A DNA stretch of 64,000 nucleotides, taken from NCBI GenBank assembly GCA_020072815.1, contig JAIQGE010000004.1, forward strand, positions 124,001 to 188,000. Direction: 5' to 3'. Below, in pieces: positions 6,187 through 11,611 of the stretch. Position 1 is the stretch's first letter. Each line of letters opens with the position of its first letter. The DNA comes from Terriglobia bacterium. Its GTDB lineage: Bacteria > Acidobacteriota > Terriglobia > Terriglobales > Acidobacteriaceae. The translations under genes were made by a program, and so were the position numbers. The notes beneath the pieces were generated by a model, which worked only from the letters and a program-made list of their open reading frames with translations, was not told the origin of the DNA and ran no database searches.

Positions 6187-7176
6187 ATGGCGATCCATGT
6201 CACTGACCTTCACCTCCTTCGCGACCAACTAGTCGTCCGCCGCCAGAAGCTGGAAGCCGCGGTCGCGCGGTCGCAAACCGCAAACATGCTCCAACTGCTG
6301 GAGCAGGTGGATAAAGCCCTGGAGCGCGTTGACTCCGGCAGCTTCGGCGTGTGCGAGGCCTGCCTGGGCACCGTGGAAGCCGACCGACTGCTCGCTGATC
6401 CCCTGGCCAAGATATGCCTGGACTGCCTGCAGCCCGCCGAGCAGCGCGCCCTGGAACAGGACCTGGAATTGGCCCAGCGCATACAAGCCGGGCTGCTGCC
6501 CAAGCCGGACTTCAACGCCGCCGGCTGGCACGTGGCGTATCACTACGAACCCGCCGGTCTGGTCAGCGGCGACTACTGTGACGTGATGTCCCACGGCCGC
6601 GAACTCTACTTCATGCTGGGCGACGTTTCCGGCAAGGGCGTCGCCGCCTCCATGTTGATGGCCAATTTGCATGCCATGTTCCGCGTCCTTATCCCCTCGG
6701 GCCTGCCGCTGGAAGAACTGGTGGCCCGCGCCAACCGCATCTTTAGTGAAAGCACCCTGCCCTCGCAGTACGCCACGCTGGTCATCGGCAAAGCCAAGGA
6801 ATGCGGTGAAGTGGAAATCTGCAACGGCGGCCACCTGGCGCCACTGCACGTGAGCCAGGGCGGCGTCCGGGCGATTGATTCCACGGCCCTGCCGGTAGGC
6901 ATGTTCCACGACCAGGAGTTCGTGAGCACCAAGATCGCGTTCTCACCCGGGGACAGCCTGGTCCTTTATACAGACGGCTTTACCGAATCCGCCGGCCCGG
7001 ACGGCGCCGAATATGGCGAACACCGCTTGCGCGCGCTGCTTGCGGCTTCGCGCGGGCACGCTCCGCGTCAGCTGACGGAAGCCTGCGTCCGCGACCTGAT
7101 GGCGTATCGCGCCAGTTCCAAAAAGCACGACGATCAAACTCTGCTGGCACTGCAATTTTCGCCGGTACAGCACTGA
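6187..7176 (+). CDS. PP2C/SpoIIE-type phosphatase with N-terminal DksA/TraR-like zinc finger
   Basis: 329 residues. Residues ~1-85 form a helical region followed by a C4 zinc finger (VCEAC...ICLDC) of the DksA/TraR type. Residues ~100-325 are an RsbU/SpoIIE serine phosphatase domain with the metal-binding motifs GDYCDV, GDVSGKG and YTDGFTE. In partner-switching systems such phosphatases dephosphorylate STAS-domain anti-anti-sigma factors. The next three genes encode an RsbW-like kinase and two STAS proteins, so this is most likely the phosphatase arm of that module. A DksA-type finger in place of a PAS or GAF sensor is unusual. An AGAGG sequence lies 5 bases before the ATG. A long perfect hairpin follows the stop codon. 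Confidence 0.85.
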   Translation: MAIHVTDLHLLRDQLVVRRQKLEAAVARSQTANMLQLLEQVDKALERVDSGSFGVCEACLGTVEADRLLADPLAKICLDCLQPAEQRALEQDLELAQRIQAGLLPKPDFNAAGWHVAYHYEPAGLVSGDYCDVMSHGRELYFMLGDVSGKGVAASMLMANLHAMFRVLIPSGLPLEELVARANRIFSESTLPSQYATLVIGKAKECGEVEICNGGHLAPLHVSQGGVRAIDSTALPVGMFHDQEFVSTKIAFSPGDSLVLYTDGFTESAGPDGAEYGEHRLRALLAASRGHAPRQLTEACVRDLMAYRASSKKHDDQTLLALQFSPVQH

Positions 7177-7329: not shown

Positions 7330-7785
7330 GTGGACCGCCGCATGACAAAACGGGTTTCGTACTCGCTGGAATCGACCTTGGAAAGCGTCAACAAGGCCGA
7401 AACCACCGCCGCGGAGGCTGCTGCCGGCGCGGGATTCAGCGAAGACGATCAGTCCAATATCGCCATGGCGGTGCGTGAAGCCGCGGTGAACGCGGTGCTG
7501 CACGGCAATGCTTACGATCCGAACAAAAAGTTCTTTGTGGCCTTTGAGACCCGGGAAGACGCCCTGGTGATCACCATTGCCGACCAGGGCAAAGGACTGG
7601 ACGTGCACTGCATCCCTGATCCGCTGGCCCCGGAGAACCTGATGAAAGGTTCGGGACGCGGCATTTTTCTGATTCGCGCGTTCATGGACGAGGTCCGGTT
7701 CAGGAATACCGAGCCCGGCACGGAGATCACACTTATCAAGCATGTCGGCCGCAAAGCGGCGAATGCCAAGGAGGAATCACAGTGA
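7330..7785 (+). CDS. RsbW-like anti-sigma factor serine/threonine kinase
   Basis: A 151-residue GHKL ATPase of the RsbW/SpoIIAB type. The N-box (VREAAVNAVLHGN), G1 (DQGKGLD) and G2 (GRGIFLIRAFMDEV) motifs are all intact. These proteins bind a sigma factor or another partner and phosphorylate STAS antagonists on serine. The stop codon overlaps the following STAS start (GTGA), which implies translational coupling. The GTG at 7330 gives the longest frame; the ATG at 7342 is equally possible, since neither has a convincing ribosome-binding site. The controlled sigma factor is not adjacent. Confidence 0.88.
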   Translation: MDRRMTKRVSYSLESTLESVNKAETTAAEAAAGAGFSEDDQSNIAMAVREAAVNAVLHGNAYDPNKKFFVAFETREDALVITIADQGKGLDVHCIPDPLAPENLMKGSGRGIFLIRAFMDEVRFRNTEPGTEITLIKHVGRKAANAKEESQ

Positions 7786-8126
7786 CAATGAAGGCTAGCA
7801 GTCGGCAGGTCAACGGCGTGGCCGTTGTGGACATGAGCGGACGCATTACCCTGGGCGAAGGCAGCGTGGTGCTGAAAGATACCGTCCGCGAACTGCTGGG
7901 CAAAGGCGAAAAGAAAATCCTGTTGAACCTGGGCGACGTGACCTACATTGACAGCTCGGGGATCGGCGAACTGGTCAGCGCGTTTACCTCCGTCCGCAAC
8001 CAGCAGGGCCAGCTCAAGCTGCTCAAGCTCACCAAGAAAGTCCACGACCTGCTGCAAATCACCAAACTGTACACGGTCTTTGAGATTTATGACGACGAGG
8101 CTGCCGGCATCGCCTCCTTCAAATAG
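7782..8126 (+). CDS. STAS-domain anti-sigma factor antagonist (RsbV-like), copy 1
   Basis: 114 residues, a single STAS domain. The conserved phosphorylation loop is present (YIDSSGIGEL, with the phosphorylatable Ser in DSSG). It starts with GTG overlapping the kinase stop: AAGGAGG lies 7 bases upstream of the GTG, whereas the ATG two codons later would have a 13-base spacing. Its role is to sequester the upstream kinase when dephosphorylated, releasing the kinase's target. It is about 60-65% identical by eye to the next gene, so this is a tandem duplication. Confidence 0.9.
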   Translation: MTMKASSRQVNGVAVVDMSGRITLGEGSVVLKDTVRELLGKGEKKILLNLGDVTYIDSSGIGELVSAFTSVRNQQGQLKLLKLTKKVHDLLQITKLYTVFEIYDDEAAGIASFK

Positions 8127-8190: not shown

Positions 8191-8529
8191 ATGAAGCTAG
8201 CGAATCGGCAAGTCGGCAACGTTGCCGTGTTGGACATCAGCGGCCGCATCGTCCTGGGCGAAGACACCGCTTTGCTGCGCAACTCGGTCCGCGACCTCTG
8301 CGCCCAAGGCAAGAAAAATATTCTGCTCAACCTGGCCAACGCCACGCACATTGACAGCTCCGGGCTGGGCGAACTGGTGACCAGCTGTGCCAGCGTCCGC
8401 AAACAGGGCGGCGAAATGAAGCTGCTCAAGCTGACGCAGAAAGTCCACGACGTGCTTCAGGTCACCAAGCTGTACACCGTGTTTGACATTTATGACGACG
8501 AGGCAACGGCGCTCAAGTCGTTCAAGTAA
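8191..8529 (+). CDS. STAS-domain anti-sigma factor antagonist (RsbV-like), copy 2
   Basis: 112 residues and a clear paralogue of the preceding gene: both share the VxDxSGRIxLGE start, the HIDSSGLGEL phosphorylation loop and the KLYTVFxIYDDEA end. AGGAGG lies 9 bases before the ATG. Two antagonists behind one kinase suggest two inputs or two partners for the same switch. It is the last gene of the partner-switching group; base composition drops sharply in the next two genes. Confidence 0.9.
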   Translation: MKLANRQVGNVAVLDISGRIVLGEDTALLRNSVRDLCAQGKKNILLNLANATHIDSSGLGELVTSCASVRKQGGEMKLLKLTQKVHDVLQVTKLYTVFDIYDDEATALKSFK

Positions 8530-8549
8530 AGTTTCTTCACGTAGTCACT

Positions 8550-9083
8550 TTGAGTAAGTCCGGTTTGAACGTACTTTCATCAGCGACTTCGCCACTCACC
8601 GACTGGCGGTCAATATTCCAGTTGGGCAATCTTCTTTCGTTCCTCGGAATCGCCGCCACGATCTACTATGCACTTCGTGCGGAGAAGAAGGCGAATACTG
8701 CACTGAAAGCCGCAGTCTCTGCACGGACAGAACTTCTCATGAAAGTCGCGGCGGAGGAGTTCGTTGAGCTCTTGAAGTTAGTGAAGTCGATTAGACAAGT
8801 TGCGCAAGCAAATGACCTTAGTCGAGCGGAAGAGATTGCAGGCAATTTGAACGAAATCTTGGCGATGGCAAAAACTTCGTGGCCTCAATTATTACAGCAA
8901 GTACAGCACGAAGAAATTGAGGTAGCATTAAGAGAGAACCAGCGTCTGCTAGCGATTCTAAGAAATGCTGACTCGCCAACTGCAGACAAAGCGGTGCAAA
9001 TTGCTCAGTTGGTCGATCTAATAACACAGTTGTTGGCGCAGGTATATGGGAGATTGCGTTTTGGGAGCATTGGTTATGGCTAA
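8550..9083 (+). CDS. Hypothetical membrane-anchored coiled-coil protein
   Basis: No family recognised. 177 residues with one hydrophobic segment near residues 27-42 (LLSFLGIAATIYYAL), followed by a long Ala/Glu/Lys/Leu-rich helical region likely to form coiled coils. The topology suggests a short N-terminal part, one membrane anchor and a cytoplasmic helical body. It is clearly more AT-rich than its neighbours and uses AT-ending codons, which suggests recent acquisition. The start is uncertain: the assigned TTG lacks a good ribosome-binding site. The end overlaps the next gene by 8 bases, so the two form a pair. Confidence 0.6.
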   Translation: MSKSGLNVLSSATSPLTDWRSIFQLGNLLSFLGIAATIYYALRAEKKANTALKAAVSARTELLMKVAAEEFVELLKLVKSIRQVAQANDLSRAEEIAGNLNEILAMAKTSWPQLLQQVQHEEIEVALRENQRLLAILRNADSPTADKAVQIAQLVDLITQLLAQVYGRLRFGSIGYG

Positions 9084-9465
9084 TGTAGCTTTAGGCGCGT
9101 TCGCGGATCCAAAACAACTCGAACTGGTGAACACGATAATTCTGAAGACCCAGCAGGGGAAGCTGCGCTGGAACAAATCCACCAGCGGTTATCACGCCTC
9201 CCTGCCAAATGACGGTCAGATGGTCATAGCCGTGTCTACACCTATCTTACCCTTTCTCGGCGGAAAAACATGGGCGCATTTTGTTGTCCGTCAGAAGGAT
9301 GGAACCGAGATTCTGAAAGTAGAAAACTCTGAAACGAACTTTTCTGGAATCCCGCAGTTTACCGCAAGCGACCTAGAGGTCGCCGTCAAGAAGCTTTATG
9401 GACTAGTGAGTGAATCAGCAACCGACGCGGTTGAGAAAGTGATAGATCAGCTGAAGCACCTCTAA
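9076..9465 (+). CDS. Hypothetical protein, AT-rich partner of the preceding gene
   Basis: 129 residues when started at the ATG at 9076, which has GGGAG 8 bases upstream. A longer frame begins at 9046. The sequence (WNKSTSGYHASLPNDGQMVIAV...FVVRQKDGTEIL) resembles a small beta-rich domain, followed by a C-terminal helix carrying DLEVAVKKLYGLV. No known family is recognised. It overlaps the upstream gene by 8 bases and shares its low GC content, so the two probably arrived together as a two-gene cassette. Function unknown. Confidence 0.6.
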   Translation: MANVALGAFADPKQLELVNTIILKTQQGKLRWNKSTSGYHASLPNDGQMVIAVSTPILPFLGGKTWAHFVVRQKDGTEILKVENSETNFSGIPQFTASDLEVAVKKLYGLVSESATDAVEKVIDQLKHL

Positions 9466-9479
9466 CGGCTTGCCTTCCG

Positions 9480-10004
9480 ATGCGTATTTCCCGTCTTGAT
9501 CGCTCACAAGTCTCGCCGGAAGTCGGCGAGATCTACGATAATTTCATGAAGGTGCGGGGCAACGTTCCCAATATGTTCCGCACCGTGGCCCACCGGCCGG
9601 AGCTGATGCGCACCATGGTCGCCCACTTTTCCGTGGTCATGGCCAATGGGGCGCTGCCCACCAAGCTGAAAGAGCTGTTGTTTGTCCGCGTGAGCCAGAT
9701 CAACCGCTGCGAATATTGACTGGCTTCACACACCGTCTTGGCAAGACGGCACGGCTGGACCGACGAGCAGATCCAAGATCTGGCCAACTTTGAAAAACGC
9801 CCTGATTTCACCGGCCAGGAAAAGCTCGCGCTGCGCGTGGCCGAGCGTGTCACCCGCGATTCCCACTCGCTGGACGACGCGCTCTTCGCGGAACTGCTCG
9901 GCGAGTTTCACGAAGACGGGACGGTGGAATTGCTCAGCGCCATCGGCCTGTTCAACTATTTCAACATGTTCAACAACGCGCTGAAAATGGAGCCGACAAA
10001 GTAG
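9480..10004 (+). CDS. AhpD/carboxymuconolactone decarboxylase-like candidate selenoprotein (in-frame TGA = Sec80)
   Basis: Two frames separated only by a TGA at 9717-9719 read as one 174-residue AhpD-like protein. The segment spanning the TGA is INRCEY-U-LASHTVLARRHGW, so the stop falls exactly on the second cysteine of the family's CxxC redox site. Glu65, Cys77, U80 and His84 have the same spacing as the E-x11-C-x2-C-x3-H signature of AhpD peroxidases. Homology continues without any other lesion to the normal end (AIGLFNYFNMFNNAL). A perfect 7-bp hairpin starts 13 bases after the TGA (9733-9749). Family role: thiol peroxidase or disulfide reductase chemistry. AhpD-like selenoproteins are known in bacteria; a point nonsense mutation is the alternative. 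The ATG at 9480 has no clear ribosome-binding site. Confidence 0.78.
9733..9749 (+). promoter_or_regulatory. Candidate bacterial SECIS hairpin
   Basis: CCGTCTT-GGC-AAGACGG forms a perfect 7-bp stem with a GGC loop. Twenty bases lie between the in-frame TGA (9717-9719) and the loop. Bacterial SelB-binding SECIS elements lie inside the coding region just downstream of the UGA, with the apical loop roughly 16-37 bases away and a G near the start of the loop; this hairpin meets both conditions. The bulged U seen in many SECIS elements is not obvious. Confidence 0.6.
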
Positions 10005-10015
10005 TTTTCTCTTTA

Positions 10016-10195
10016 TCCCGAGCGGAGCGAGGGAACCCTATGAGTACGATCCGCTCGCGCTGCCACACCGCGACGGGTGAAGACAGGCGCATTCGCTGGC
10101 ATGCTTTTCTCTCGAAAAGCACACCGCTAGAAGTTTCAGTGCACGAACCTCGTTCATCGTTGATGATAGGGACCTCTCGCTCCGCTCGAGGTTTC
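10016..10195. repeat. Inverted-arm intergenic element (GAGCGGAGCGAG type)
   Basis: The arm at 10016-10040 and the arm at 10167-10195 are inverted copies sharing the 13-bp core CGAGCGGAGCGAG and the tip CCCTA. About 125 bp between them has no convincing gene. The element fills the gap between two convergent genes. A related single arm (CCTGAGCGGAGCGA) occurs near 54547. Confidence 0.5.
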
Positions 10196-10213
10196 GGAAA
10201 AACCAACCCCAGC

Positions 10214-10243
10214 AAAAAAGGCCAGAGCGTTTCCGCCCTGGCC
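10214..10243 (-). terminator. Rho-independent terminator of the XRE regulator gene
   Basis: Read on the minus strand this is GGCCAGGGCG, a GAAA tetraloop, CGCTCTGGCC, then six T. The 10-bp stem contains one G-T pair. It starts 20 bases after the regulator's stop codon. Confidence 0.85.
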
Positions 10244-10263
10244 GCAGGGTTTAAGGAGAGAGC

Positions 10264-10833
10264 TTAGGCCGTTCTTCTCGGGCGCACGCTCATTTCGCGC
10301 ACTTGAGAAAGCACGGTGGATTTCTGCATCACGTCCAGCTTGTCCAGGAAGGGGACCAACTCGGCGATGAATTCGTCATGCATCAGGTCGGCGATTTCAT
10401 CTTCCAGCGTGCGGTTGGAGCCTTTCAACAGGTCAGCCACGCCCACCTCCAGCGCCGTCGCCAGGCGCTGCATGGAAGAAAGCGTAGGCACGGCCTTTTC
10501 ATTTTCAATTTTGGATACGTAGGTACGCGGCACCTGCATGCGCAGCGCGAGCTGGCGCTGGCTCAATCCTGATTTCAGCCGTAACATACGGATGGCTGCG
10601 GCAATCTGCAGGTGTGGATGATGGCTGCTCGGCGCTTCGACCACCGGCGGCTGTTCGACAAGGATCGGCTCAGGCTCGTCCTCATCCAGTGACGTTCGGC
10701 ATTTCCTGCAAAGGTTGTTGACGGTCCGGAACTGGACGAGATGGCAATGATCGCAACGAACTACTTCCCGGGAATCTACCGGTGCCAGAGTTGTGGCCAT
10801 GAATTTTTTCGGAGCTGCCAGAGCGGGCAGCAT
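10264..10833 (-). CDS. XRE-family transcriptional regulator with N-terminal zinc ribbon
   Basis: About 189 residues. A short CxxC...CxxC zinc ribbon (CDHCHLVQ...LCRKCRTS) is followed by a lambda-repressor-like helix-turn-helix (LRLKSGLSQRQLALRM, TYVSKIENEKAVPTLSSMQRLATAL). The C-terminal helical tail (ADLMHDEFIAELVPFL) may dimerise or sense a signal. The frame extends to a TTG at 10857; the ATG at 10833 is a more ordinary start. It is divergent from the HD-domain gene, and the shared upstream region holds two identical 14-bp direct repeats exactly 42 bp apart. Those may be its operators. A strong terminator follows the gene. Confidence 0.85.
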   Translation of the reverse strand: MLPALAAPKKFMATTLAPVDSREVVRCDHCHLVQFRTVNNLCRKCRTSLDEDEPEPILVEQPPVVEAPSSHHPHLQIAAAIRMLRLKSGLSQRQLALRMQVPRTYVSKIENEKAVPTLSSMQRLATALEVGVADLLKGSNRTLEDEIADLMHDEFIAELVPFLDKLDVMQKSTVLSQVREMSVRPRRTA

Positions 10834-10932
10834 TCCAACTTCACTTCCCCACTGCAACTTCAGACTGCTGGATCCCTAACAAACTCTAGTCTCTACATAG
10901 ATTTACGGCTTGTCAACCAAAAAATGCAGGTG

Positions 10933-10988
10933 AAACAGGTATAAAAACCCAATATAGTAGCGAAATAAAAGAGAAAACAGGTATAAAA
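10933..10988. promoter_or_regulatory. Tandem 14-bp operator-like direct repeats
   Basis: AAACAGGTATAAAA occurs at 10933-10946 and again at 10975-10988. The two copies are 42 bp apart start to start, about four helical turns, so they would lie on the same DNA face. The second copy ends 11 bases before the HD gene's start codon. A regulator bound there would overlap the ribosome-binding region or promoter. The adjacent XRE regulator is the obvious candidate binder (inference). Confidence 0.5.
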
Positions 10989-10999
10989 CACCTAGGAAT

Positions 11000-11611
11000 A
11001 TGACCACCATGACCAATGCCACTCCCATGCCCACCCGCGACGCCGCCTGGATCCTGCTGTGCGAATACACCCAGTCTGAAAGCCTGCGTAAACACATGCT
11101 GGCGGTGGAGGCCTGCATGCGCTCCTACGCCCGCAAGTTTGGCGAGGATGAAAACTACTGGGGCATCACCGGCCTGCTGCATGACTTTGATTACGAAAGA
11201 TATCCCACGCCGCAGGAGCACCCGTTCGTCGGCAACAAGATTCTGGAAGAGCAAGGCTACCCCGAGGAAATGCGGCGGGCCATCCTGTCGCACGCCGACT
11301 ACAGCGGCGTGAAGCGCGAAAGCAAGATGGAGAAGACACTGTTCGCGTGCGACGAACTGGCCGGCTTCATCACCGCCAGCGCGCTGGTCAAACCGAATAA
11401 ATCCCTGGCGGAGGTGGAAGCTAAATCCGTCCGCAAAAAGATGAAGGACAAAGCCTTCGCCCGCAGCGTGAGCCGCGACGACATCATCAACGGCGCCGCC
11501 GATCTGGGCATTGACCTGGAAGAGCACATCGCGTTCTGTATTGAAGCGATGAAGGCGATTGCGGCGGAGTTGGGGTTGGCGGGAGAGTCAACCGCGAATA
11601 CACGCGAATGA
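11000..11611 (+). CDS. HD/HDIG-domain phosphohydrolase-like protein
   Basis: 203 residues. The HD metal site is visible as GLLHDFDYERYP together with upstream His (KHMLAVE) and downstream HADYSG. Proteins of this type are usually metal-dependent phosphohydrolases acting on nucleotides; the substrate here cannot be deduced. The C-terminal portion (FARSVSRDDIINGAADLGIDLEEH) is typical of the HDIG subfamily common in environmental bacteria. Its last 40 codons plus about 50 bp downstream are duplicated at 14658-14842. It is transcribed away from the XRE regulator and may be controlled by the repeats just upstream. Confidence 0.85.
   Translation: MTTMTNATPMPTRDAAWILLCEYTQSESLRKHMLAVEACMRSYARKFGEDENYWGITGLLHDFDYERYPTPQEHPFVGNKILEEQGYPEEMRRAILSHADYSGVKRESKMEKTLFACDELAGFITASALVKPNKSLAEVEAKSVRKKMKDKAFARSVSRDDIINGAADLGIDLEEHIAFCIEAMKAIAAELGLAGESTANTRE

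Follow-up and report, generated by a model that had tools for sequence, protein, structure and literature searches.

The gene at positions 9480-10004 of the forward strand very likely makes an AhpD-like selenoprotein in which selenocysteine (Sec) 80 is specified by a UGA codon; we hold this reading, jointly with the mechanism steps set out below, at a probability of about 0.97. Its frame, its fold, the selenium machinery of its genome, the hairpin behind the UGA, the alternation with Cys and the selection past the TGA were all computed here. Throughout, the window is the whole stretch of DNA analysed, 64,000 nt in length.

The gene and its product

Read with TGA as Sec, the frame at 9480-10004 is open except for the TGA at 9717-9719 and ends in a TAG stop, giving a CMD-fold protein of 174 residues with Sec at residue 80. 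By the standard table the frame stops at the TGA, and an annotation made in that way would leave only a 79-residue fragment of this gene. An earlier note on this DNA had claimed that the TGA sits where the CxxC site needs its second Cys, that the spacing of the site residues is that of AhpD, and that the family similarity resumes past the TGA, and all three points hold in the read-through translation. U80 is the second residue of a CxxC-type site, CEYU; E65, C77, U80 and H84 are spaced E-x11-C-x2-U-x3-H; and the CMD domain PF02627 spans residues 40-122 (E 6.6e-19).

The read-through protein passes the cut-offs of PF02627 (68.1 bits, cut-off 23) and of the AhpD core domain model TIGR00778 (63.5 bits, cut-off 27.8). 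The cut-off of 81.8 for the peroxidase-related enzyme model TIGR01926 is missed by the window protein, at 72.3; of three relatives taken singly, L066 (96.2) and L049 (97.0) pass it and L031 (79.0) fails. The AlphaFold2 model, for which a 51-row alignment (A1) was the input, is all-helical with a pLDDT of 95.4. Its top matches among solved structures are the AhpD-core proteins 2prr and 6k40, both at TM 0.88, and the AhpD-fold debrominase Bmp8 (6ohi, 6ohj) is also among the matches. In a plasmid collection 842 records match the protein, every one at less than 60% identity, the eight rows listed lying at 30-32%.

Orthologues and the alternation of Sec and Cys

Two hundred genomes, the window's own included, were searched at E up to 1e-20, giving 106 match rows, of which 105 were analysed; the 54 rows at least 46% identical to the window protein were taken as orthologues. 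In a comparison of 6 loci, the nearest named records come from Acidobacteriaceae and Terriglobia genomes (71-82%), and Silvibacterium bohemicum follows at 59%. Does TGA alternate with Cys codons at this position, as had been proposed for a check? It does: codon 80 is TGA in 41 of the 54 orthologues and TGC or TGT in 13. The other active-site residues are nearly constant, with E65 in 53, H84 in all 54 and Cys77 in 52. L072 has Q in place of E65. Two Cys copies, L049 and L050, carry Thr for the first Cys (TPYC), and from them the presumed resolving residue is gone.

The window copy shows no lesion, and purifying selection persists beyond the TGA; the scattered frame damage named beforehand as a sign of a simple nonsense mutation is not seen in it. 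Past the TGA, dN/dS lies between 0.046 and 0.263 in every one of the 10 pairs compared among the TGA copies, as against 0.035-0.148 ahead of it, with the ratios to be taken as rough, since several dS values exceed 1. In 7 of the 10 pairs the part beyond the TGA has the larger ratio, yet one well under 1.

On a quick tree 11 of the 13 Cys copies fall in one clade and three changes are needed among the orthologues; reckoned from these sequences, the switches between Sec and Cys number at least three, that is, few independent events. Two paralogous clades lie outside the orthologous set. In one, neither site residue survives in 10 rows (L092, L093, L095, L098, L099, L100, L102, L105, L106 and L107), which have SxxA or FxxG instead of CxxU/CxxC; 8 of these 10 sit in genomes with selA and selB. 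The other is an AhpD-like clade of 22 rows (L108, L110-L113, L115-L117, L119-L124 and L127-L134) with CxxU in some members and CxxC in others; 13 of the 22 face selB, in convergent orientation, at a distance of about 0.7 kb or less.

A SECIS-type hairpin behind the TGA

A SECIS-type hairpin, with a 7-bp stem and a GGC loop, lies at 9733-9749 on the + strand, 13 nt after the TGA. It is letter for letter the one described in the earlier note: a 13-base spacer (9720-9732), then CCGTCTT (9733-9739), GGC (9740-9742) and AAGACGG (9743-9749). The hairpin thus comes directly after the UGA and has a G in its small loop, a small loop containing G being a trait of bacterial SECIS elements described in excerpts of PMC1088965. 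Allowing up to two mismatches, the TGA-plus-hairpin motif has a single occurrence in the 64-kb window and none in 100 shuffles; a looser pattern has a single occurrence in the 5.29-Mb genome, and the same pattern read backwards has none.

Is the hairpin more than a chance inverted repeat? We assessed it by comparison across copies, counting pairs at a fixed stem place, and this count replaced a folding-energy test. All seven pairs form in 39 of the 41 TGA orthologues, and the 13 Cys orthologues form 0-4 of the seven. When the 41 TGA copies are recoded synonymously, only 0.12% of the recoded versions attain 7/7 pairs, and the hairpin is therefore beyond chance. The two TGA copies with an incomplete stem at the fixed place are L072 (6/7) and L041 (2/7), the latter having, by eye only, an alternative possible hairpin, CTGCC-AGTT-GGCAG. 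In L082 (genome G085) the loop is GTT and the gene was matched as two overlapping pieces; this copy may be broken.

A further set from the phylum comprises 20 loci, obtained from 36 match rows by leaving out 8 already included and 8 without TGA. These loci lie outside the tree, and not all are orthologues; L192-L194 look like paralogues from their site motifs. Of the 19 TGA copies here, 18 pair 7/7 and the remaining one 6/7, with stems of differing letters, such as CCGCGCA-GGC-TGCGCGG and CTGCCTG-GGC-CAGGCAG. Taking all 60 TGA copies together, 57 are fully paired, whereas re-dealing the 3' arms 2000 times gave 21.1 on average and never more than 29; of 420 pairs 413 form, as against at most 235 when the arms are slid by 1-3; and the loop is GGC in 59. 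As judged from these comparisons of sequence, the hairpin is tied to the TGA and covaries. The 41 Sec orthologues, with the hairpin, and the 13 Cys orthologues, none with it, make a clean natural series for the study of Sec retention and loss.

Whole-segment folding energy, compared with synonymous recodings, is a poor test for this hairpin. Over 45 nt the window copy gave no significant result (z +0.38; 62 of 100 recodings equally or more stable), which counts against the hairpin. The mean z was -0.55 for the 41 TGA copies and +0.04 for the 13 Cys copies; with relatedness ignored, the one-sided p for this difference is 0.027. Compared with Rfam, with E values of up to 1 admitted, positions 8400-11400 had a single match, off-site and far below its gathering score.

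In one TGC copy, L088, the 5' arm is intact, with CCGTCTTGGC, and the 3' arm has decayed; the match spans 100 residues only, and the genome, G151, has selA and selB. Its hairpin looks like the relic of a SECIS element after a change from Sec to Cys.

Selenium machinery and other candidate selenoprotein genes

A search for the Sec machinery had also been proposed, and selA, selB, selD and tRNA-Sec are all present in the window's own genome (5.29 Mb in 32 contigs, given as 100% complete). There is one match each over the curated cut-offs for selA (E 1.8e-165), selB (E 3.1e-116) and selD (E 2.5e-114), and the tRNA-Sec has the anticodon TCA.

Close to its start the selD gene (L021, contig C8) carries one TGA in frame (AGUASKL, U21), which makes SelD itself a selenoprotein candidate. 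A second CMD protein of the genome, at L003:1484-2064 on the - strand of contig C1, has an in-frame TGA (CPFU), Asn for the site His and, by eye, a GC-rich inverted repeat following; this is likely another selenoprotein. A third CMD protein has CxxC and no TGA. With the AhpD-like gene, the second CMD gene and selD each carrying a TGA, the genome has at least three candidate selenoprotein genes.

How does the machinery follow the Sec form across genomes? With the E limit for a match set at 1e-60 (selB) or 1e-80 (selA), 38 of the 41 TGA genomes have both genes, two (G006, G037) have selA alone, and one, G131 (73% complete), has neither at these thresholds. Among the 13 Cys genomes nine lack both and four have both. 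Counted as selA or selB, this is 40 of 41 TGA genomes versus 4 of 13 Cys genomes (Fisher p 1.2e-6). A test of independent pairs for the Sec form against selA/selB among the orthologues was not significant, because the Sec/Cys switches are few, and the Fisher value is therefore not free of common descent.

Gene neighbourhood

Upstream of the AhpD-like gene the window holds, in order on the + strand, a SpoIIE-type phosphatase that also carries a DksA/TraR zinc finger (6187-7176; PF07228, E 1.3e-42), an RsbW/SpoIIAB-like anti-sigma kinase (7342-7785; NCBIfam NF003144, E 1.2e-18, but 67 bits where the cut-off is 145), a STAS anti-sigma factor antagonist (7782-8126; TIGR00377, 71.6 bits, cut-off 53.45) and another STAS protein, which shares 62% identity with the first (8191-8529; PF01740, E 1.8e-14). 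Two small genes (8550-9083 and 9046-9465), with no Pfam or NCBIfam match, stand between these and the AhpD-like gene; L030 alone of the 54 orthologous loci matched them (38% and 53% identity).

The window's proteins were compared with the orthologous loci by tblastn at E up to 1e-6. Of the 41 Sec loci, 29 have RsbW-like and STAS genes no more than about 2.2 kb upstream, and so does one of the 13 Cys loci (L051). The totals of 41 and 13 include three loci with too little upstream sequence to judge, namely the Sec locus L072 (23 nt) and the Cys loci L053 (272 nt) and L065 (301 nt). At L068, a Sec locus, the RsbW-like and STAS genes are on the opposite strand. Apart from the window, the SpoIIE gene is seen only in L025-L027, and there in part, most loci covering 1.5 kb upstream. 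At the same threshold RsbW/STAS genes were absent from the 20 further phylum loci, one of which (L193) spans 7 nt upstream; their absence from the 19 with enough upstream sequence means that the linkage is not general to the AhpD-like protein. The link spans two families of one order and follows descent.

The gene order suggests that the AhpD-like selenoprotein may be tied to a stress module, and it offers a lead to the function of the protein. A bolder proposal would be that in Terriglobia-type Acidobacteria the selenoenzyme is wired, as a redox sensor or effector, into an RsbW-STAS partner-switching stress module of the SpoIIE type, and that the lineage which turned to Cys, its selenium machinery mostly lost, also lost the link, where we infer the direction of change. 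We regard this proposal as improbable, at a chance of about one in four.

Alternative explanations and proposed mechanism

One might take the TGA for a plain nonsense mutation and the gene for a pseudogene, as the standard-table frame of 79 residues does end there. Such a mutation would hardly be kept in 41 of 54 orthologues, nor would purifying selection be expected past it or a covarying hairpin that is missing from the 13 Cys copies, and on these three grounds we reject this explanation as having next to no chance of being right. Might TGA instead be read as some other amino acid throughout, under a changed code, or be generally read through? Nothing beyond the open frame itself speaks for that. 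TGA ends 14 of the 40 stop-to-stop frames of at least 300 codons in the window (some of these perhaps not genes), the genome has tRNA-Sec along with the Sec enzymes, and a position-specific hairpin would be needless under such a code. With TGA serving as a stop elsewhere in the window and the Sec machinery at hand, a changed code is rejected as just as implausible.

A third possibility accepts the insertion of Sec and holds that peroxidase activity is not the main role of the product. The protein could be a redox sensor or a thiol-disulfide relay, perhaps for the RsbW/STAS proteins encoded next to it, or could act on another substrate, like the debrominase Bmp8. The RsbW-like and STAS genes upstream of most Sec loci and the presence of Bmp8 among the fold matches speak for such a role; against it, its basis is gene order only, the linkage is missing in the 19 further loci of the phylum, out of 20, with enough upstream sequence, and the E-C-U-H residues are those of the hydroperoxidases. 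A role of this kind seems to us unlikely, if somewhat less so than the full stress-module proposal.

We return to an AhpD-like selenoprotein with Sec80 at the UGA. SelB, bound to the hairpin at 9733-9749, would deliver Sec-tRNA(Sec) to the UGA codon (9717-9719); decoding of that codon as Sec would give the full 174-residue protein. In AhpD the peroxide is attacked by the second Cys, tuned by Glu and His. Sec80, standing in place of that cysteine, would be the attacking residue; Cys77 would resolve it via a selenenylsulfide, and Glu65 and His84 would serve as a proton relay. The product would be a peroxide- or thiol-active oxidoreductase. We infer the insertion of Sec in the cell, and likewise the peroxidase chemistry with its substrate and reductant.

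Comparison with known systems

The earlier note's suggestion that the CxxU form may be undescribed does not stand: excerpts of three papers put AhpD-like CxxU proteins in print since 2005 (PMC1088965, PMC2398784, PMC13188914). By these excerpts the AhpD-like selenoprotein (COG2128 / TIGR01926, CxxU) was found in the Sargasso Sea and GOS metagenomes (PMC1088965, PMC2398784) and is listed in PMC13188914, where TIGR01926 is given as the model for AhpD-like selenoproteins. For the Acidobacteria, extracts of the literature count four selenoproteins of three families in 2006 (PMC1794560), and, for Occallatibacter riparius, a member of the phylum, three known selenoprotein genes (PMC12013277). As far as the excerpts go, the metagenome proteins share with the window protein a CxxU site with Sec second, a SECIS element just after the UGA, a small G-bearing loop and common Cys homologues. 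They differ in that the window protein scores under the TIGR01926 cut-off (72.3 against 81.8), and in that the RsbW/STAS gene order is unmentioned in those excerpts. Among the matches listed in the open-licence literature, none dealt, by title or opening lines, with this AhpD-like subfamily or with the RsbW-STAS gene order.

The window protein has its best NCBIfam E-value with NF053654 (GroundWater_YciW, a YciW-related (seleno)protein), residues 2-170 being aligned, but at 77.3 bits against a cut-off of 310 it is a relative and not a member. The Mycobacterium tuberculosis AhpD (1knc, 1gu9) shares the AhpD fold, though at a TM of only 0.53-0.58 as against 0.88 for 2prr and 6k40; its site has the spacing E-x11-C-x2-C-x3-H, with Cys where the window protein has Sec. 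AhpD-like selenoproteins are thus already known in other bacteria, and the gene at 9480-10004 extends that knowledge rather than changing it.
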